From: Nitrososphaera sp.
GTDB taxonomy: Archaea; Thermoproteota; Nitrososphaeria; Nitrososphaerales; Nitrososphaeraceae
Assembly (NCBI GenBank): GCA_029263715.1
Contig: JAJUFP010000009.1
Span: forward strand, 1-64,000
Length of the DNA stretch: 64,000 nt
Reading direction: 5' to 3'
The notes beneath the pieces are model-generated. The model did no database searches. It saw only the letters and a program-made list of their open reading frames with translations, and had not been told where the DNA came from. Below, one piece after another: positions 210 through 58,661 of this stretch; position 1 is the first letter of the stretch; the number at the start of each line of letters is the position of its first letter. A program made the position numbers and the translations under genes.

Positions 210-2459
210 ATGTTTGAACCTAAAACCCGAGGAAAAGATAGGACGAGGCAAAAAGGGTACCGGCGAACTTTAGGTGACATCACGGCTCATTTCCCAATTG
301 CTATAATTATTTTGGCTTACTTTCTCTCAAGCATTCTCCTTAATGCTCTCTACACCATGCCCCGTGCATACGCTCAAGAATCAGGAGGTGTTGCAGATAG
401 TTTCGGTGAATATAAAAACACGTGCTACGATGTGACGGTTAATTATCCTAAAAATTGGGTTTTGCAATCAGGAGATGATTGTTCAGAAATCACAACTTTC
501 GCCATTTTTGATGAAGCCTTTGAAACAAAAAGAGGAATGTTCGAAATTAAAGTGGTTCCTAGGCCTTACCCCGAAGTAATTGAAGACTTTGACGTATTGC
601 TGTTGTATTCAAATGATAGGATAAGTGAGGTAATTTATGAAGAAGATTTAACTTTTGAGATGCAGTCGACGCAGCTTCAGGAATGGCTTGACGAGCTTGA
701 GGAGGATTCAACTTTGCAGGAGAGAGGGGATTTTGTGGATCCTCTTGTGAACGCAATTTCACTTAAAGAAAGTTCTATGAGTATTTACTATTTTGAAAAT
801 GTTGATTTGGATAAGCGGACCCTTGATGTAGTAATGGAGAGCTTTGTTCTAGAAAACGATTATCTGTATATATTCAAACATTCTGAATTAACGGTCTCTT
901 TTCAAGACATCAAGACTTTGTATGAACGATTTCTTGACTTTTCAAAAGGGTTCTTCTTAAATAATATAGAAATAAGCACCTTCGAATCTGATGTGCCCGA
1001 AAAGATCGACTACAATGCAATAAATATGAAACTAGGCAATACGCCATCTGATATTGCCATTGATAACACTGGTGAGAAGATACTCTATATTGCAAACGAA
1101 ATTTCTAATTCCGTTTCAGTGGTTGATTTACAAACACATAAAGTGTTAGAAGAAATAGAAGTTGGAGAACGCCCCACAGGAATTGCTTTTGATACTTACA
1201 CCAACCGCATCTACGTTACTAATTCAGGATCTGACTCAGTTTCAATAATAGATGGCGTTACAAGAAAAGTGATCAACGATATTGATCTCAATTCAGGAGA
1301 TGTGCCAGTAGATCTAGTTATTGATCAATTAAATTCGTTGGTATTCGTTATCAATGAGGGCTCCGAGTCGGTTGCAGTAATTAAAGACACGAAAGTGCTG
1401 AGATGGGTAAAGGTGGGTGCCTGGCCGACCCAAATTGCGATCAATCCACATGTACACAAAGTCTATGTAACTAACAACGATGACGGCTCGGTCTCCATTA
1501 TTCGGTATAATCCGATATACGAGCCAGATCTTTATTCTAATTCTGATGCTTTAATAGGCGAGATAAAGACCGTAAAGACCGGACCGGATCCAGTTGGCAT
1601 AGCAATTGATCCTTTTAACAATTATGTCTATGTAGCTAATTCTAATTATTCTGATGAGGAATCAAAGGAAGGTTCTATCTCCATTATAGATGGGGTAGGA
1701 GACTATGAACTAGATGAAAAATTAGTAGAAAAGCCTATGTTGATCGCTTTTAATAAGAATACGGAAAGAATCTACTTTTCAACATTTTACGACAATATTT
1801 ACGAGTACGATGTTGGTTACGGGAACGACGTGCCGACTCTAAGTAGTATCACACAAATCAAGAATGAGGCTGGATTTTCTGTTCGGGATATGGTCCTGGA
1901 TCCCTCGGAAAATCGGATCTACATTATTAATGATGGATATCCATATTCTGGCCTTTATGAAATAATTGCAGAGGGCACTTCAATGGAGTATCTGGTGAAC
2001 GTGCATTATCAAGTCAAGATAGGTAATAACGATGTTCCCGCAGACTTGAAGGACATAATCTTGAAGTGTAATGGGGAAAAAATGAATTGGCTCAACAACA
2101 ACATAAATTCTGGAAGCTACATGAAATACAAATACGGAACGCCCATATCCTGCGAAGTCGAGGACTCTTTCATATTTAGCGGCGGAAAGATTTTGATGTT
2201 TGACTCATTCAAGAATGAGAAAGGAGTTACGATATCTGCGGTTGAAGCGACCCAGAACCTTGAAGTCACTGCAAACTTTCAATCTTTACCCGCAGATATT
2301 CTCTCGATTGCTGGAACTGCGATCGCCTCGCTTGCAGGCATTTACAAGTATGTACCTGTTTTCAGGAAGAAAATGCAAGGAATTGGAAAACGAATTCCGG
2401 GTGCTAAAAGTGCAGCGAACAAAATAATGGGTAGAAAACAGAAGGATGCGTCTTCATAG
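210..2459 (+). CDS. Secreted, membrane-anchored YVTN-repeat beta-propeller protein
   Basis: The 749-residue product starts with a basic stretch and one hydrophobic segment (about residues 28-48) ending in AYAQE, which reads as a signal peptide or anchor. A beta-sandwich-like part follows to about residue 260. Residues about 270-560 carry repeats of the YVTN type, with variants such as RIYVTNSGSDSVSIID and KVYVTNNDDGSVSII, as in surface-layer-associated propellers. A second hydrophobic segment near residues 690-710 is followed by a basic tail, so the propeller probably faces outside with the C-terminus inside. Codon use is more AT-rich than in the metabolic genes further on. Ligand and function are unknown. 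Confidence 0.85.
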   Translation: MFEPKTRGKDRTRQKGYRRTLGDITAHFPIAIIILAYFLSSILLNALYTMPRAYAQESGGVADSFGEYKNTCYDVTVNYPKNWVLQSGDDCSEITTFAIFDEAFETKRGMFEIKVVPRPYPEVIEDFDVLLLYSNDRISEVIYEEDLTFEMQSTQLQEWLDELEEDSTLQERGDFVDPLVNAISLKESSMSIYYFENVDLDKRTLDVVMESFVLENDYLYIFKHSELTVSFQDIKTLYERFLDFSKGFFLNNIEISTFESDVPEKIDYNAINMKLGNTPSDIAIDNTGEKILYIANEISNSVSVVDLQTHKVLEEIEVGERPTGIAFDTYTNRIYVTNSGSDSVSIIDGVTRKVINDIDLNSGDVPVDLVIDQLNSLVFVINEGSESVAVIKDTKVLRWVKVGAWPTQIAINPHVHKVYVTNNDDGSVSIIRYNPIYEPDLYSNSDALIGEIKTVKTGPDPVGIAIDPFNNYVYVANSNYSDEESKEGSISIIDGVGDYELDEKLVEKPMLIAFNKNTERIYFSTFYDNIYEYDVGYGNDVPTLSSITQIKNEAGFSVRDMVLDPSENRIYIINDGYPYSGLYEIIAEGTSMEYLVNVHYQVKIGNNDVPADLKDIILKCNGEKMNWLNNNINSGSYMKYKYGTPISCEVEDSFIFSGGKILMFDSFKNEKGVTISAVEATQNLEVTANFQSLPADILSIAGTAIASLAGIYKYVPVFRKKMQGIGKRIPGAKSAANKIMGRKQKDASS

Positions 2460-39098: not shown

Positions 39099-39755
39099 AT
39101 GCTTGGAGATCGCAACCTGCGGGGGATGATAGAAAAGGCATTTGACAGGCTGTATGATGATCTTAGCATCAAAATAGACAAGACAAACAACGACAGGATC
39201 CATGCCTTGGAAGCCTCACTTTGTACCCGGCTTGCCTACTACGAAAGAAGGGATTCCATAGCACCTGATAACAATTCCAAGATCTCCATACTTTTGGGAA
39301 ACGGCCTACGACACGCCCTGAGCAACATCAAAGGAGAATACAGGGTGGATAACCTGACCCTTGAAGTAAACGCTGACATGATAATAGCCGACGAATTTGT
39401 CGTGCGCTTTGAAGTTGTGTCGCAGCTGCCAGAGATCCCGCACCCGAGGCACCTGCTGTATCTGAACGCCTGCCTGTTTGCCTTCAACAAAAACGATGGC
39501 TTCCTTATCTATATGGATGCCGAGGGCAAGACGGCAGAATTCTCTGTAACCAAAAACAACAGGATGTTTGAAGAAACCATCCGACGAGCAAGGGTGCTGA
39601 GCGCGCTTTTGAAGGAAAACAAGGTCCCCATCGTCGAGCCGTCAGACCTGTGCCTGCGCTGCAAATATTACGAACGATGCTTTGCCCGAGAGAAGATAAA
39701 GAGCTCCAGCGGCGACATACTGGCAGACATTTTCGGAAAATTATCGGGCAAGTGA
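39099..39755 (+). CDS. RecB/Cas4-like Fe-S protein with altered PD-(D/E)XK site
   Basis: The 218-residue protein follows the Cas4 plan. C42 is in SLCTRLAYYERR near the N-terminus, and three cysteines (C185, C188, C194) are in CLRCKYYERC near the C-terminus, together a [4Fe-4S] set. The nuclease core is there in outline: H72 as motif I, D93 in VNADMIIAD, and E105. The ExK lysine position holds V107 (FEVVSQ) and the QhxxY motif is only partly kept (HLLYLNA). It may therefore bind DNA or RNA without cutting. No cas gene or CRISPR array is nearby. Confidence 0.75.
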   Translation: MLGDRNLRGMIEKAFDRLYDDLSIKIDKTNNDRIHALEASLCTRLAYYERRDSIAPDNNSKISILLGNGLRHALSNIKGEYRVDNLTLEVNADMIIADEFVVRFEVVSQLPEIPHPRHLLYLNACLFAFNKNDGFLIYMDAEGKTAEFSVTKNNRMFEETIRRARVLSALLKENKVPIVEPSDLCLRCKYYERCFAREKIKSSSGDILADIFGKLSGK

Positions 39756-39763
39756 GAGGAGAA

Positions 39764-39904
39764 CTACTCCCCGCCGTGGCTGCTCTGGCTTTCGCTTGGA
39801 GTGTACCCGCTGCTGTACCTCCTTGCCCTTGTCCCAAATACTATGCCCGTAAGGATCGCGAACATTCCTATGGTCACACCGAACATGAATAGTTCTTCTG
39901 ACAT
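39764..39904 (-). CDS. Small single-helix membrane protein (46 aa)
   Basis: The frame encodes MSEELFMFGVTIGMFAILTG then a short helix end and a polar Ser/Gln tail, with the basic stretch TRARRYSSGY after the helix. Charge placement fits a protein with its N-terminus outside. Its length and layout are like those of the 51-residue protein at 14628-14783, though no sequence identity is clear. The 3' end is convergent with the RecB/Cas4-like gene, nine bases away. Confidence 0.55.
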   Translation of the reverse strand: MSEELFMFGVTIGMFAILTGIVFGTRARRYSSGYTPSESQSSHGGE

Positions 39905-40191
39905 GCGGTGAACGTTAGCTCAAAAGTTATTATCTTTATCGGTATGGTGCAGCGCACTTGATGATATTATCATAAAATGAAGAGATTCTATGACAATGAT
40001 ATTTTTGATGAAAAGGTTCAAAAACTAATATTTTTTGTGTATTTTGGTCAAGTATTTTAGCATGATCGATTCGGTGGTGTGGCGTTCAAAATCTATCTGT
40101 AAAACGTTGCATATGCAGGCTGTCTAAAAAGAGTCGTGGATTCAAAAAGATCCCATTGGTAAAAAGTTCGAGTCTTCAATTACTAATATAA
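39905..40191. other. AT-rich intergenic region
   Basis: These 287 bases hold no convincing gene. A short imperfect dyad TGATGATATTATCA lies at about 39961-39974, and a T-rich stretch follows at about 40030. The region carries the promoters of the small membrane protein and of the copper oxidase-like gene. Confidence 0.4.
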
Positions 40192-41772
40192 TTGAGGACT
40201 CTACTATTGACATTGAGTTCCACCTGTAGTAAAGAGGATCTTGGCGAATGGGAAATAATTCAACCACACTTCAAACATCTACCAGTACACGTGGCATTAC
40301 TTCATAATGGAAAAGTTTTGGCGTTTGGTGGCTCCGGCAACGACCCATCCAAACTAAGAAGATGGGACAAACCAGAAATCTTTGAACCTGATTATTCCGG
40401 TCAATCAGACGGACAAGTCTATGAAATTTCTGACGACGGAATAGAAGGCGACGTTTTCTGCGTAGGCCATGCTTTTCTACCGGATGGCAAATTGCTTCTT
40501 GCAGGAGGAACATTTCAGTACGACGGAATATTTGGAAGACCGTTTCCTCTGATACCGTTCTCGGGTCTTGAGCATGCCTACGTTTTTGATCCCGAGGACC
40601 TCAGTTGGACTAGACTTAAAAACATGAGATATGGGAGGTGGTACCCAACATGTGTGATGCTTCCAGACGGCCGAATCGCAACCTTTGGAGGGCTCACGAA
40701 ATGGCCTCCGTGGGTGTTCTTGCCTTTCCATGAAGTTTATTCCGACAAAGACAAAGGTTGGCAACGGCTGCGGGGAGGCGACAAGTTCTTTCCACTTTAT
40801 CCACGGATTCACCTGCTGCCAAATGGAGAGTTGTTTTACGCAGGTTCGTACAACACTCACCTCACCTTCCCGTTCTCATTGTGGGGTTTCAGGATAGCTA
40901 CTTTTAACATGGCAGAAAGAAGATGGAAGCCCCTGCCGCATCCAAGGGAGCTGCACAGACAAGAGGGAACCACGGTACTGCTTCCACTCCTTCCTCCTGA
41001 CTACAAGGCTCGTGTTCTCCTAATCGGCGGAGGGGATACTCTGGCAAATCACGCCACAAACACAGTCGAGATGATCGATTTCTCAGAACCAGATCCCCAG
41101 TACAGAACAATTGGTCCGATGAAACATGAACGGTATTATGTGTATCCGGTGTTGCTGCCGGACCAGAACGTACTTGTCTTGGGAGGCAAAGTAGGTCAGC
41201 ATGGCCATAATGACGATACTCATGATTGTGTTGAGGAAGAACCAGGGGAAATAAAACCCGACAAAGACGCGATTCTTGAACCGGAGATCTTTATAACAAA
41301 TGAAGGAAAATGGAAACCTTTAGCTGAGATGAAAATCGCCAGGCTGTATCATTCAAACGCCCTTCTCTTGCCTGATGGAAGGGTGATGGCGGCAGGAAGC
41401 AACCCCATGCGAAAATGCAATGAGCTGCGTATAGAGATATTCAAACCGCCATATCTTTGTAAAGGAAAGGAGCGCCCCGTTGTATCAAGGAGCCCCAAGA
41501 TAATAGACTATGGGCAGACCTTTGAGATCGAAACCGAAAATGCAGATGAAATCAAAGCAGTCGGGCTAATCAGACCTTCATCAACCACACATTGTCTTAA
41601 CACCGAGCAAAGGTACGTTGGTTTAGATTTTAGCTGTAAAAGCACGAACGGTTTGCTGGTCAATGTTCCAACCAACAGGAATCTGTTGCCGCCCGGCTAC
41701 TACATGTTGTTCATAGTAAACTATGATGACATACCATGCGTAGCACCTTTTGTTAGGGTAATTGGATTGTAA
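40192..41772 (+). CDS. Copper radical oxidase-like protein (galactose/glyoxal oxidase family)
   Basis: The 526 residues form a kelch-type propeller with repeats like LHNGKVLAFGG, LPDGKLLLAGG and LPDGRIATFGG. An early-set Ig-like C-terminal domain (DUF1929) follows. The five residues of the glyoxal oxidase copper site are all in place: C90 (VFCVGH) and Y151 (GRWYPTC) for the Cys-Tyr cofactor, Y386-H387 (RLYHSNALLLPDGRV) and H467 (THCLNTEQR). Spacing is close to that of fungal glyoxal oxidase. The family oxidises aldehydes or alcohols to make H2O2. No signal peptide follows the TTG start, and a Cys at residue 12 is not in a lipobox. Confidence 0.82.
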   Translation: MRTLLLTLSSTCSKEDLGEWEIIQPHFKHLPVHVALLHNGKVLAFGGSGNDPSKLRRWDKPEIFEPDYSGQSDGQVYEISDDGIEGDVFCVGHAFLPDGKLLLAGGTFQYDGIFGRPFPLIPFSGLEHAYVFDPEDLSWTRLKNMRYGRWYPTCVMLPDGRIATFGGLTKWPPWVFLPFHEVYSDKDKGWQRLRGGDKFFPLYPRIHLLPNGELFYAGSYNTHLTFPFSLWGFRIATFNMAERRWKPLPHPRELHRQEGTTVLLPLLPPDYKARVLLIGGGDTLANHATNTVEMIDFSEPDPQYRTIGPMKHERYYVYPVLLPDQNVLVLGGKVGQHGHNDDTHDCVEEEPGEIKPDKDAILEPEIFITNEGKWKPLAEMKIARLYHSNALLLPDGRVMAAGSNPMRKCNELRIEIFKPPYLCKGKERPVVSRSPKIIDYGQTFEIETENADEIKAVGLIRPSSTTHCLNTEQRYVGLDFSCKSTNGLLVNVPTNRNLLPPGYYMLFIVNYDDIPCVAPFVRVIGL

Positions 41773-41783
41773 TGTCAAAAATG

Positions 41784-42329
41784 TCAGGGGAACGTCAGTT
41801 GAAATTCCTTTTCCTCTGCTGTCGTCTGAAGGTTTGCGGCAGTCAACCTGTATGAGTAAGTGCCTTCTATGACGTAGCTGGCGTTACCTGAAACCATCTT
41901 GTCCCATGCCGACCCTATCTGGCTGTTCCTGACGGCCGTCTCTGTGTCCCTGACGGTAAGGGTAGTACCAGCAACTATTGGGAAAAGTTCACCCTGCGAA
42001 CTCACGAACCCTTCGGCGCTCTGGCCTACGTCGCCTATCGTCACATGAGATTCATCGACATAGATGTTGTAGTGAATTGTCTCCAGTAAAAGGGTGGCCT
42101 GGTTGGGGTTGTCCAATGTAAATGTGATCTGAACGTTAGCATTCTTGTCATCGAGCTTGGTTACCGTGATGTCCTTTACTGCAATAGGCGGGGCTACAAT
42201 TGCTGTTTCCCGCGGGGCGTTTGGTTGCTGACCTCCGGAGAAAATATTTCCCATGACAAAAAACATCGCCACGGCCACGGCAGCTATGCCTCCGGCGGCA
42301 GCGTAGATAATCTTGGTATTCACGATCAA
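41784..42329 (-). CDS. Anchored LEA-2/WHy-type protein
   Basis: The 181 residues have one N-terminal helix (about residues 8-27) and then a single LEA14/WHy-like beta-sandwich. The pattern is ITVTKLDDKNANVQITFTLDN, LETIHYNIYVD and TLTVRDTET, followed by YVIEGTYSYRLTA. These domains are linked to desiccation and stress tolerance in plants and occur widely in archaea, where their role is unknown. The domain would lie outside the membrane. It is convergent with the copper oxidase-like gene, with 11 bases between the stops. Confidence 0.7.
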   Translation of the reverse strand: MIVNTKIIYAAAGGIAAVAVAMFFVMGNIFSGGQQPNAPRETAIVAPPIAVKDITVTKLDDKNANVQITFTLDNPNQATLLLETIHYNIYVDESHVTIGDVGQSAEGFVSSQGELFPIVAGTTLTVRDTETAVRNSQIGSAWDKMVSGNASYVIEGTYSYRLTAANLQTTAEEKEFQLTFP

Positions 42330-42412
42330 AATTCATTCGGCCAGTCTTCTGTTTAAATCTGTCGTTTGGTGCACAAGGATTATACTTTACTTTCTGTTAG
42401 CAGTCAGCAGAT

Positions 42413-42730
42413 TTGCAGTATCATAAGGCAGCCCATCTAGGCAAGGAAAGGGCGCAAAAAGCCCAGATGAAGCTCTTTGACTATACGGGCTTTGCAATGC
42501 TAACATACACCATAAAGCAGTCTACAGGTGGATTTGAACCGGTGGGAGAAGAAGAGCTGGCGGCCAGGATGACCCGTGGAGACGAAGCCATGCTGTTTAT
42601 CTGTGACAAGGACGGATACGCTAAAGCCCAGTCAAAGCCCATGCCCCTAGACAAGGGCGAAGAAATATTCAAAAAAATGCTGGCCGACGGAATGCAGGAG
42701 TATTCCGGAACCATCAGAACCGTTTCCTAG
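42413..42730 (+). CDS. Hypothetical small soluble protein
   Basis: The 105-residue frame opens with TTG 42413. A TATA-like TTATACTTTA about 30 bases before it supports this over the ATG at 42467. The likely core is YTIKQSTGGFEPVGEEELAAR and MLFICDKDGYAKAQSKPM. No motif was recognised. Its stop overlaps that of pyrH on the other strand by four bases. Confidence 0.55.
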   Translation: MQYHKAAHLGKERAQKAQMKLFDYTGFAMLTYTIKQSTGGFEPVGEEELAARMTRGDEAMLFICDKDGYAKAQSKPMPLDKGEEIFKKMLADGMQEYSGTIRTVS

Positions 42731-56628: not shown

Positions 56629-56837
56629 CTCTAAGTTTATGCAGACAAAAACGAAGAGTGTTGTTTTTAGAATTCTCTTGTAAACAACCAACATTCCGTG
56701 TTTAATGGTGTGATTTGCAATGCGGTATGCTGCGTTGGCCCTTTGGAATGGTTGAGATATGTTAATTGTGTTCTATGTACCGTTCTAATTATCCGCACCA
56801 TTAAGTGATAAATGAACAACATTTTTCCAAATAACAA

Positions 56838-56845
56838 ATATTTTA
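56838..56845 (+). promoter_or_regulatory. TATA box of the mannosyl-3-phosphoglycerate synthase gene
   Basis: ATATTTTA is centred about 28 bases before the ATG at 56869. This favours that start over the ATG at 56812 and makes the message leaderless. Confidence 0.5.
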
Positions 56846-56868
56846 TTTTATTAATGCCTACAATTTGT

Positions 56869-58071
56869 ATGAAGATAGATGTTCCTAGTTATTTTGAAAG
56901 ACTAGGTTCGATCAATATTCATCCTTTGCAGAGGGTTTACGAACTCGACTCCGGCAAGGCAAATGGCTCTCATATTCATCACAAAGCTGTTAGAGAATTT
57001 AGCTACGGTGAAATTTCCAACATCCTAAACGATCTTGCTGTAGTAATTCCAATCAAGAATGGAAATCTAAAGATCTTGGAAGGAGTTCTATCCGGCATTC
57101 CTAACGAATGTCTGGTAGTAATAGTATCAAACAGCAGTAGAATACCCATAGATAAGTATCAAGTAGAGATCAATGCCATCAGGCAGCTTGTAAGATTTAC
57201 CGATAAGCGGATGGTGGTAATACATCAAAGTGATCAAGGGCTCAAACAAGCCTTCAAGAAGGTGGGCTACCGCTCGATTCTTGATTCTCGGGGAAATATC
57301 ATAGACGGAAGAACAGGAGCTTTGATAATTGGGGTGCTCATTGCCAAGATGTTCCACAGGGAATATGTGGGATTCATAGATGGCAGCAACTATCTTCCGG
57401 GGGCAGCAAATGAATATGTCAAGATTTTCGCCGCCGGCTTTGGCATGTCTAACACACCATACACCAACGTCAGAGTCTCTTGGTCCCACAGGCCTATGAT
57501 AAAAGATAACTCCTTGCATTTTGCCAAGTGGGAAAGGGTCTCTAAAGAAGAGAACAGGTATCTAAATACGATCCTCTCATCCATAACTGGATTTGAAACT
57601 GATATTATTGTTACCGCAAGTTCCGGTGACCATGCACTTTCAATGCCCCTTGCAGAATGTCTACACTTTTCCACAGGAATGCCAATAGAACAGTATGAAT
57701 TGATAGATATATTTGAAAAATTCGGCGGACTAGTTGCAGACCGTCCTCAGGCAACACATGAGGTCGAAGTATTTCAGATAGAATCAAGAAATCCGCATTT
57801 TAAGGATGTAGACAAAGACAATGATAACTCGACAGGAATGCTTGAAACTTTTCTCCTGAACCTCTATCGTAGCAAGATCTGTTCTTACTCTTTGAAAAAA
57901 ATACTTGATCAAGTGAGGAAGGGGACATCTGTAGAAAAAAATCCTGACGCGTCAAGAAAATCGATGCTCAAGAGTCGACTATTAGAACCGATAAAGTCCG
58001 TTCAGATTTCAGAATTCAAGAAAGAATTACTTGACAAATCTAAAACGTTTACCAGATTTGGTTCGCTATAA
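56869..58071 (+). CDS. mpgS: Mannosyl-3-phosphoglycerate synthase with altered DxD motif
   Basis: From ATG 56869 the GT55-type enzyme has 400 residues: MKIDVPSYFERLGSINIHPL at the start, VVIPIKNGNLKILEGVL, then the KMFHREYVGFIDGSNYLPGA region. GEISNILND, SGDHALSMPLAECLHFSTG and the later PIEQYELIDIFEKFGGL segment complete the family pattern. It makes the precursor of mannosylglycerate, a compatible solute. The usual DAD triad of the metal site is DGS here (GATGGCAGC), so the second Asp is Ser. The phosphatase MpgP is not adjacent. Confidence 0.85.
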   Translation: MKIDVPSYFERLGSINIHPLQRVYELDSGKANGSHIHHKAVREFSYGEISNILNDLAVVIPIKNGNLKILEGVLSGIPNECLVVIVSNSSRIPIDKYQVEINAIRQLVRFTDKRMVVIHQSDQGLKQAFKKVGYRSILDSRGNIIDGRTGALIIGVLIAKMFHREYVGFIDGSNYLPGAANEYVKIFAAGFGMSNTPYTNVRVSWSHRPMIKDNSLHFAKWERVSKEENRYLNTILSSITGFETDIIVTASSGDHALSMPLAECLHFSTGMPIEQYELIDIFEKFGGLVADRPQATHEVEVFQIESRNPHFKDVDKDNDNSTGMLETFLLNLYRSKICSYSLKKILDQVRKGTSVEKNPDASRKSMLKSRLLEPIKSVQISEFKKELLDKSKTFTRFGSL

Positions 58072-58136
58072 TTGCATATTTGTTATATTCTTGCAGTGCA
58101 TGAAAAATATTTAGCGTACTGCACTCACTATTAAGC

Positions 58137-58661
58137 ATGGGTCAAGGAAGTTCGAATGAAAGCATCACTTTTCGCATAAATTCGAACTACTTGTCAGACC
58201 TGCGTCGGCTCGCTGACGAAGAAAAGATCAGCCTAAACACCCTTGTAAACCAAATCTTGAAAAGCTATGTTGACTGGGAAAGCATTGCTGTAAAGGCGGG
58301 GTTTGCCGTCTTTCAAAAGGAAGTTGTAAAGGAGCTTTTCAACGCTGTGGATCAGAATACCCTGCAGCAGATTGCGATGCGTACGGCAGACAAATCCAGG
58401 GACACACTTCTGCTTATGAAAGGTGCAACAAATCTGGATGCAGCCCTCTCTCTTTTGAATAGTAGGTCTAGAAAGGCAGGCTTTAGTTACAGAGAGTTTC
58501 ACGAACCTGATGGACGACGTATAGTGATTCAGCATGACATGGGCATCAATTACTCGACTTTTTTCAAAACACACAATGAAAGGATGTTCAATAACGCCGG
58601 CTATTCGGTCAAAGTCGATATAACAGAAAGCTCTACAATTATCAAGATACTGGATAAATAA
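58137..58661 (+). CDS. Ribbon-helix-helix DNA-binding protein
   Basis: The 174 residues start with ESITFRINSNYLSDLRRLADEEKISLNTLVN, a ribbon-helix-helix pattern (a strand then two helices). An unrecognised C-terminal half has LLLMKGATNLDAALSLL and then FHEPDGRRIVIQHDMGINYST. The latter may be a ligand-binding or oligomerisation part. A TATA element at about 58103-58112 lies 29 bases upstream. It follows mpgS in the same direction, but 65 bases apart with its own promoter. Targets are unknown. Confidence 0.7.
   Translation: MGQGSSNESITFRINSNYLSDLRRLADEEKISLNTLVNQILKSYVDWESIAVKAGFAVFQKEVVKELFNAVDQNTLQQIAMRTADKSRDTLLLMKGATNLDAALSLLNSRSRKAGFSYREFHEPDGRRIVIQHDMGINYSTFFKTHNERMFNNAGYSVKVDITESSTIIKILDK

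Follow-up and report, generated by a model that had tools for sequence, protein, structure and literature searches.

Results

A predicted oxidase gene between two resident genes

The window, meaning the whole stretch of 64,000 nucleotides of Nitrososphaera sp. DNA analysed here, contains a reading frame at positions 40192–41772 of the forward strand that is open over 526 codons in the window's ORF listing. The gene predicted within this frame lies in a segment that congeneric genomes lack, between two genes that all six congeners compared possess. The main features of the locus are as follows.

39099–39755, + strand: left resident gene, Cas4/DUF83 family (Pfam 4.6e-5); present in 6/6 congeners
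39978–41776, no strand: inserted segment of ~1.8 kb that congeners lack (blastn comparison with L078 and L079; ends accurate to within a few bases)
40183–40192, + strand: TATA-like AT-rich stretch ctaatataat, ~21–30 bp upstream of TTG 40213; read from the sequence
40213–41772, + strand: predicted AA5-type copper radical oxidase gene, 519 amino acids from a conserved TTG (ORF, Pfam, GlxA match, start alignment)
41784–42329, − strand: right resident gene, LEA-2-like, its product hydrophobic over a stretch at the N-terminus (Pfam LEA_2 0.0027, below the curated cut-off); present in 6/6 congeners

Two TTG codons could open the oxidase frame. The longer alternative at 40192 gives a product of 526 amino acids, but the start is probably the TTG at 40213 because it aligns with the only start codon, likewise a TTG, that the orthologues L002 and L003 possess ahead of their first conserved strand. 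Translated from this codon, the protein opens with MSSTCSKEDLGEWEIIQ. The remaining members of clade A, the group of archaeal relatives to which the gene belongs (see below), start with ATG, GTG or TTG at similar depth. AT-rich stretches occur in L002–L004 at a distance upstream (~20–30 bp) similar to that in the window, and the TATA-like stretch, judged by distance alone, would suit a leaderless archaeal transcript. Signs of purifying selection speak for a genuine gene: dN/dS is ~0.10 and 0.12 in the two pairs for which it was computable, where dS already exceeds 1; dS is saturated for the window gene against those of G333 and G117. Residue numbers given as C90, W150, Y151, Y386, H387 and H467 refer to the 526-residue form and correspond to C83, W143, Y144, Y379, H380 and H460 in the 519-residue form.

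Family assignment and active site

Pfam models matching the oxidase are GO-like_E_set (1.3e-23), Glyoxal_oxid_N (8.8e-13) and kelch repeats. A phmmer search of solved structures ranks Streptomyces GlxA first (4unm; 3e-59) and places galactose oxidases and other fungal members after it; the alignment matches the FC, RWYPT, RxYH and TH motifs of GlxA in the window protein. GlxA is also the top NCBIfam model (NF052501, E 7e-88); at 295.5 bits against a curated cut-off of 800, the protein falls short of this equivalog. The candidate active-site residues are located as follows.

40459–40461, + strand: Cys90 (83 of 519), candidate cross-linking Cys, aligned to GlxA FC; 40/41 rows
40639–40644, + strand: Trp150-Tyr151 (143-144), candidate second-sphere Trp and cross-link Tyr, aligned to GlxA RWYPT
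41347–41352, + strand: Tyr386-His387 (379-380), candidate axial Tyr and Cu-ligand His, aligned to GlxA RNYHS; 42/42 rows
41590–41595, + strand: His467 (460), candidate Cu ligand, followed by Cys468 (461); His in 42/43 rows

Among the rows reaching the position, Trp150 is found in 39/41 and Tyr151 in 41/41. All of these counts come from 43 aligned rows, which include the window and two short fragments; the set leaves out L010, L024, duplicates and the partial match G032:C101, and contains G032:C274 as a fragment. An earlier residue-conservation alignment was made without L010 (a 77-amino acid fragment from G035) and six duplicate loci (L013–L016, L018 and L020) and retained L024, whose open stretch stops before the second His.

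The first-pass annotation had proposed that five residues of a glyoxal/galactose oxidase site (C90, Y151, Y386, H387 and H467) are conserved, and both the alignment with GlxA and the 43-row counts confirm this. Within clade A, each active-site residue is present in every row covering its position; relatives lacking Cys90 or Tyr151 were sought and none appeared, both residues being present in all nine clade-A rows that reach them. Losses in the wider family all lie outside clade A and comprise Cys to Ser plus Trp to Phe in G368, His to Leu in L032 and Trp to Tyr in L035. The comparison made there was with the fungal enzyme; among solved structures, bacterial GlxA is closer than the fungal enzymes.

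Two of the variants deserve mention in their own right. The AA5-like protein L032, from a Thermoleophilia MAG, carries a Leu where the second copper His would stand. The G368 protein, in which Ser replaces the cross-link Cys and Phe the Trp, may be a natural variant without the cross-link.

An AlphaFold2 model of the window protein, computed with 17 bacterial relatives, is nearly all beta (pLDDT 85.9, pTM 0.90). Foldseek ranks 1–27 are all AA5 structures (E 1.6e-39 to 1.1e-28), with 4unm at rank 1 (TMq 0.81). The first match outside AA5 is a kelch design (E 2.5e-15), and generic kelch folds follow from there. Two marks of the AA5 superfamily are present: a kelch propeller precedes a galactose-oxidase early-set domain (Pfam kelch and GO-like_E_set, AlphaFold2, Foldseek), and the Cys, cross-link Tyr, axial Tyr and two His all occupy aligned positions. 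We conclude that the frame encodes an AA5-type copper radical oxidase protein, its function being predicted from sequence and model.

Archaeal relatives

A search of other genomes of the class, which the first-pass annotation had suggested, showed that the window protein is not an isolated archaeal member. Counting the window's genome, AA5-like matches occur in 10/70 genomes of its family and AA5-like genes in 23/400 genomes sampled from its class, in four architectures. A sample of the phylum gave matches in 6/398 genomes; five of these belong to the window's order, and the sixth match, from outside that order, is weak (E 1.3e-4). Clade A comprises 10 genomes (the window's, G059, G019, G010, G117, G261, G333, G278, G192 and, as a remnant, G152), and its proteins are 52–58% identical to that of the window. 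Clade B, with Tat signals, comprises nine (G030, G031, G032, G002, G059, G067, G158, G316 and G398); clade C three (G183, G310 and a fragment in G267), the G183 and G310 proteins having no signals; and clade D only G368, a 1006-amino acid fusion to multicopper-oxidase domains. G059 holds both clade A and clade B, and G035 has only a 77-residue fragment. The clade-A orthologue in G010 carries two in-frame stops and the G152 copy is a remnant; therefore, the function appears dispensable in some lineages. A search of 22 genomes (all holders but G035) detected AmoA in 20, with two copies in the window's genome; the misses were in G261 and G278. Most holders, although not all, are therefore ammonia oxidisers.

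A genome-collection scan with short peptide patterns returned 18 loci of bacterial relatives, with 29–37% identity in the best segment. A plasmid collection gave 25 records, and identity was at most 35% among the 20 matches listed. No bacterial clade-A member was seen in that scan or among the plasmid matches listed; because the scan used short peptide patterns, one may exist.

Several other arrangements came to light. In L066:4505–7525 (G368), L033 and L037 (Nitrosomonas communis), an AA5-like domain lies behind an N-terminal part with multicopper-oxidase motifs; the three fusions are without an obvious signal, and Pfam was run on the archaeal one (G368). At L064:7549–10319 and L065:1136–3935 (G183 and G310), a signal-less AA5-like gene directly adjoins a tyrosinase gene, which places two copper oxidases next to each other. 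The incomplete genome G032, of the window's genus, has five AA5-like places on contigs C126, C39, C274, C112 and C101, four of which read with Tat motifs.

Export signals

Signals were assessed by hand on start codons of our choosing, by twin-arginine motif and hydrophobicity. The motif ([ST]RRxF[LIV]) is present in 12/12 clade-B proteins and, in this test, absent from all eight intact clade-A members, which span three families. The most hydrophobic 15-residue stretch within the first 60 residues scores 0.91–1.19 in clade A and begins at residue 20–32, over the first conserved strands. By the same measure clade B scores 1.41–1.92 and the two signal-less clade-C proteins 1.19 and 1.52. Since the clade-C scores overlap the Tat range, it is the motif and not the hydrophobicity score that carries the distinction. 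In the window, L002, L003 and L040, in-frame stops upstream allow at most 12 extra residues. The hand test likewise detected no signal or anchor of the GlxA type in the window oxidase, and the original description of an archaeal copper-radical-oxidase candidate without a signal peptide is thus supported and extends to 8/8 intact members of clade A. With no recognisable export signal, clade A is predicted to be cytoplasmic. A copper enzyme in the cytoplasm is unusual, which counts against this prediction.

Sequence hallmarks of clade A

A Cys immediately follows the second copper His in 10/10 clade-A rows and in 0/33 others; clade B has His, not Cys, at this position in 11/12. His216 (519 numbering) is found in all nine clade-A rows covering it, in 1/2 clade-C rows covering it and in none of the other groups. 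A third hallmark is an insertion.

41191–41268, + strand: inserted loop with His, Asp and Glu (residues ~327–352 of 519), from alignments; model confidence partly low

The insertion follows a GG[KR] motif and contains His, Asp and Glu in most members. By galactose oxidase numbering it would begin beside the Gln406 position, at the rim of the active site, and in the AlphaFold2 model pLDDT falls below 50 at residues 331–336 (519 numbering). In the 75 residues before YH, a span that also takes in some positions outside the loop, there are 4–9 His in 8/9 clade-A rows, 1 in G278 and 0–2 in each of the other 32 rows. The notion of a His-rich loop as a strict hallmark is weakened by the single His of G278 and by the window protein, which has only 4.

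Probable insertion into a conserved locus

In 6/6 congeners, the Cas4-like and LEA-2-like genes are adjacent with no oxidase between them, and ~225–303 bp separate the matched ends. None of the six contains a clade-A gene; G030 has a clade-B gene on another contig. Window positions 39802–39977 and 41777–42500 align to abutting stretches in G042, so that ~1.8 kb is extra in the window. G027 shows the same join, and the join was seen at base level in these two of the six congeners.

Phylogenetic analysis used 41 rows, the fragments of G152 and G267 also being left out, and a midpoint root only. Clade A forms one group (support 100/100), in which the window gene groups with genes of another family (G117, G261 and G333; 100/99), apart from those of its own. 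A constraint uniting the four own-family rows lowered the log-likelihood by 47 units (AU p = 7e-5). The tree program warned of deviating composition in 11 rows, the window's included, and of two long branches (G368_D and L035) that meet. Given the meeting long branches and the midpoint root, the position of the window gene inside clade A is more secure than the branching order among the clades.

The GC3 of the oxidase gene is 0.462 against a window mean of 0.593, the sixth lowest among 50 mechanically listed ORFs of at least 150 amino acids. Base composition by itself was rejected as an argument for transfer, since GC3 is only sixth lowest of the 50 and other low-GC stretches exist; the claim rests on the empty site and the tree. 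Taken together, these comparisons give good support to acquisition of the oxidase gene through its insertion at a conserved site. Repeated loss might also leave congeners without the gene, yet alone would not yield this tree; the composition differences are a reason for caution.

Further ORFs with low GC3 (0.38–0.48) lie at window positions 210–2459 and 56812–58661 and were possibly acquired too. Between the Cas4-like gene and the insertion is a 46-codon ORF with a hydrophobic stretch (39764–39904, − strand). Its DNA aligns at least partly in 4/6 congeners (L076, L078, L079 and L080), and it may encode a small conserved membrane protein.

The first-pass annotation had drawn attention to the adjacent LEA-2 protein. 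The neighbour is indeed there (weak Pfam LEA_2 match), but a functional link is ruled out by the Cas4-like/LEA-2 adjacency without the oxidase in 6/6 congeners. Because the oxidase looks horizontally acquired into a pre-existing gene pair, LEA-2 being the old resident and the oxidase the newcomer, the proximity is incidental. A mobile element was also rejected, as the oxidase is the single long ORF of the inserted stretch, terminal repeats are missing and the repeats found were all short, diverged and two-copy. A scan for sigma-70 signals and terminators gave numbers too near expectation to be informative (5 against 3.2 expected and 3 against 2.5, respectively).

A conserved neighbour as partner was rejected as well, since G117 and G333, both of genus g18, are the only clade-A genomes with neighbours in common; the contigs of G261 (3.2 kb) and G019 (6.3 kb) are too short to tell. 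A GMC oxidoreductase gene adjoins the clade-A gene of G333 (L058:3664–5208), a phosphoesterase-family gene adjoins that of G192 (L063:6213–7283), and no neighbour family was recognised at the G117 locus. As the neighbours differ among these three, genomic context gives no pathway. No glycosyltransferase, the cslA-type partner, was found among the six neighbouring window ORFs scanned with Pfam.

Hydrogen peroxide setting

Mn-catalase was found in 3/12 genomes searched (G059, G019 and G010), all of them clade-A holders, and heme catalase in 1/9 (G059). Searches of the window's genome found neither, and 7/10 clade-A genomes are without a detectable Mn-catalase. The window's genome is 93.6% complete, so that absence is likely, not certain, and the 3/10 clade-A genomes with Mn-catalase speak against a catalase-free setting as a general rule. 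In the part of the published analysis available (PMC7554672), only Nitrososphaerales among ammonia-oxidising archaea are reported to have acquired Mn-catalase, with a loss in N. viennensis, and all ammonia-oxidising archaea are reported to have kept alkyl hydroperoxide reductase. Catalase is described as absent from three of the four orders of the group, and most catalase-free species as depending on or profiting from external H2O2 scavengers (PMC7554672; also PMC6593220, likewise in part). The concern voiced at the outset, that this enzyme would make H2O2 inside the cell, is strengthened by the missing signal (8/8) and by the failure to find a catalase in the window's genome; the intracellular production itself we infer.

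Discussion

The product of the gene is probably a copper radical oxidase of the GlxA/glyoxal-oxidase type that resides in the cytoplasm, a judgement that covers enzyme class and location and not the role in aldehyde oxidation. In such an enzyme, copper would be bound by Tyr386, His387, His467 and a Tyr151 cross-linked to Cys90, and the Cys-Tyr cofactor would form by itself with copper and O2. A small aldehyde (as its hydrate) or an alcohol would then be oxidised by two electrons and O2 reduced to H2O2, the removal of which would be left to an alkyl hydroperoxide reductase. One might guess that the inserted loop and the Cys beside the copper ligand help to obtain scarce copper. Because the Trp adjoins the cross-link Tyr as in GlxA and FgrAldOx, glycolaldehyde- or glyoxal-like substrates are suggested rather than galactose, and by this analogy the substrate would be of the aldehyde type. 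The most likely role would be the removal of reactive C2/C3 aldehydes, of which we are less sure than of class and location.

An alternative concerns the substrate alone: instead of stray aldehydes, the enzyme might oxidise a defined alcohol or sugar of the cell, such as a polyol or a precursor of glycans, and its H2O2 might serve in signalling. This idea overlaps with the explanation above, and we regard it as rather unlikely. It would fit the GMC oxidoreductase and phosphoesterase neighbours in G333 and G192 and the reported tie of GlxA to cell-wall morphogenesis together with cellulose synthase (PMC13094651, in the part available). However, those neighbours are not common to clade-A loci, and the Trp-Tyr order is that of the aldehyde-oxidising members.

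It is unlikely, in our estimate, that the same oxidase works outside the membrane, whether exported by a route that shows no recognisable signal or by means of a signal overlooked because starts were misassigned. We know of no characterised AA5 enzyme that is not secreted or membrane-anchored, the copper and O2 chemistry of these archaea takes place mostly outside the cytoplasm, and archaeal clade B carries Tat signals. Hydrophobicity, moreover, does not separate all groups, with one Tat protein at 1.41 and clade C reaching 1.52. Against export, eight of eight intact members from three families lack a signal in the hand test, and the upstream stops, which leave room for no more than 12 residues in four loci (window, L002, L003 and L040), argue against a missed start. 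Kelch propellers are common binding scaffolds, yet a binding or structural protein that keeps the residues is improbable, because the full catalytic set and the Trp persist in all covering clade-A rows despite drift to 52–58% identity and the residue losses (G368, L032 and L035) lie outside the clade.

Building on the cytoplasmic oxidase, a wider proposal is possible, and we offer it tentatively. Clade A may be a distinct cytoplasmic copper radical oxidase lineage that spread horizontally among ammonia-oxidising archaea and their kin, equipped with a copper-acquiring loop of its own and with Cys next to a copper ligand. Its members, mostly (7/10) in genomes without detectable Mn-catalase, would make intracellular H2O2 on purpose, for aldehyde detoxification or signalling.

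Comparison with known systems

The best match by both sequence and structure is GlxA of Streptomyces lividans (4unm), a membrane or secreted protein with the same first-shell residues, the Trp-Tyr pair in RWYPT and a propeller followed by a C-terminal early-set domain. GlxA has ~110 more residues than the window protein between the Cys and Tyr regions, whereas the inserted loop and the Cys adjoining the copper His are additions of clade A. FgrAldOx (9n3u), a secreted fungal enzyme, stands at Foldseek rank 25 (E 1.3e-31), and its sequence match (1.1e-26) is weaker than that of GlxA. Galactose oxidase (AA5_2, 1gof) has the same fold and the same set of Cys, two Tyr and two His as the window protein; its second-sphere Trp (W290) comes from another sequence position, and no case for galactose binding by the window protein can be made. 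Fungal glyoxal/aldehyde oxidases (AA5_1), of which FgrAldOx is an example, share the copper-site residues and the adjacent Trp-Tyr; the same source, in the part available, places GlxA outside AA5_1 and describes a common Trp arrangement and similar activity profile for GlxA and FgrAldOx (PMC13094651). GlxA is reported to turn over glycolaldehyde, producing H2O2 (PMC4736821), and cslA is reported as its partner gene (PMC3543389), each in the accessible portion of the paper.

Among the archaeal groups, the clade-B proteins have the same active-site residues and come from genomes of the same order. They differ from clade A in the Tat motif (12/12), C-termini that are longer in most, a His after the copper His (11/12) and the absence of the loop. 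In the accessible part of a 2013 phylogeny of GlxA-like proteins, no archaeal orthologues were identified, and the family was argued to have been born in eukaryotes and passed to bacteria (PMC3543389). The four archaeal architectures, mostly in genomes with amoA, place the sampling of that study, and with it the argument on origin, in doubt. Titles and abstract starts searched yielded no description of an archaeal copper radical oxidase among the matches listed, mostly open papers. A word search of AA5 papers from 2024 and 2026 gave no mention of archaea (PMC11267884, PMC13094651), and copper proteins from marine metagenomes include galactose oxidases, with no assignment to archaea in the part of the text available (PMC4585252).

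New here is an archaeal copper radical oxidase lineage without a recognisable export signal and with sequence hallmarks of its own, although automatic annotation in genome databases may already recognise such proteins. Should clade A be active in the cytoplasm, it would be a source of H2O2 in a group largely reported to be without catalase. It might also offer an enzyme of this class whose production does not require secretion.
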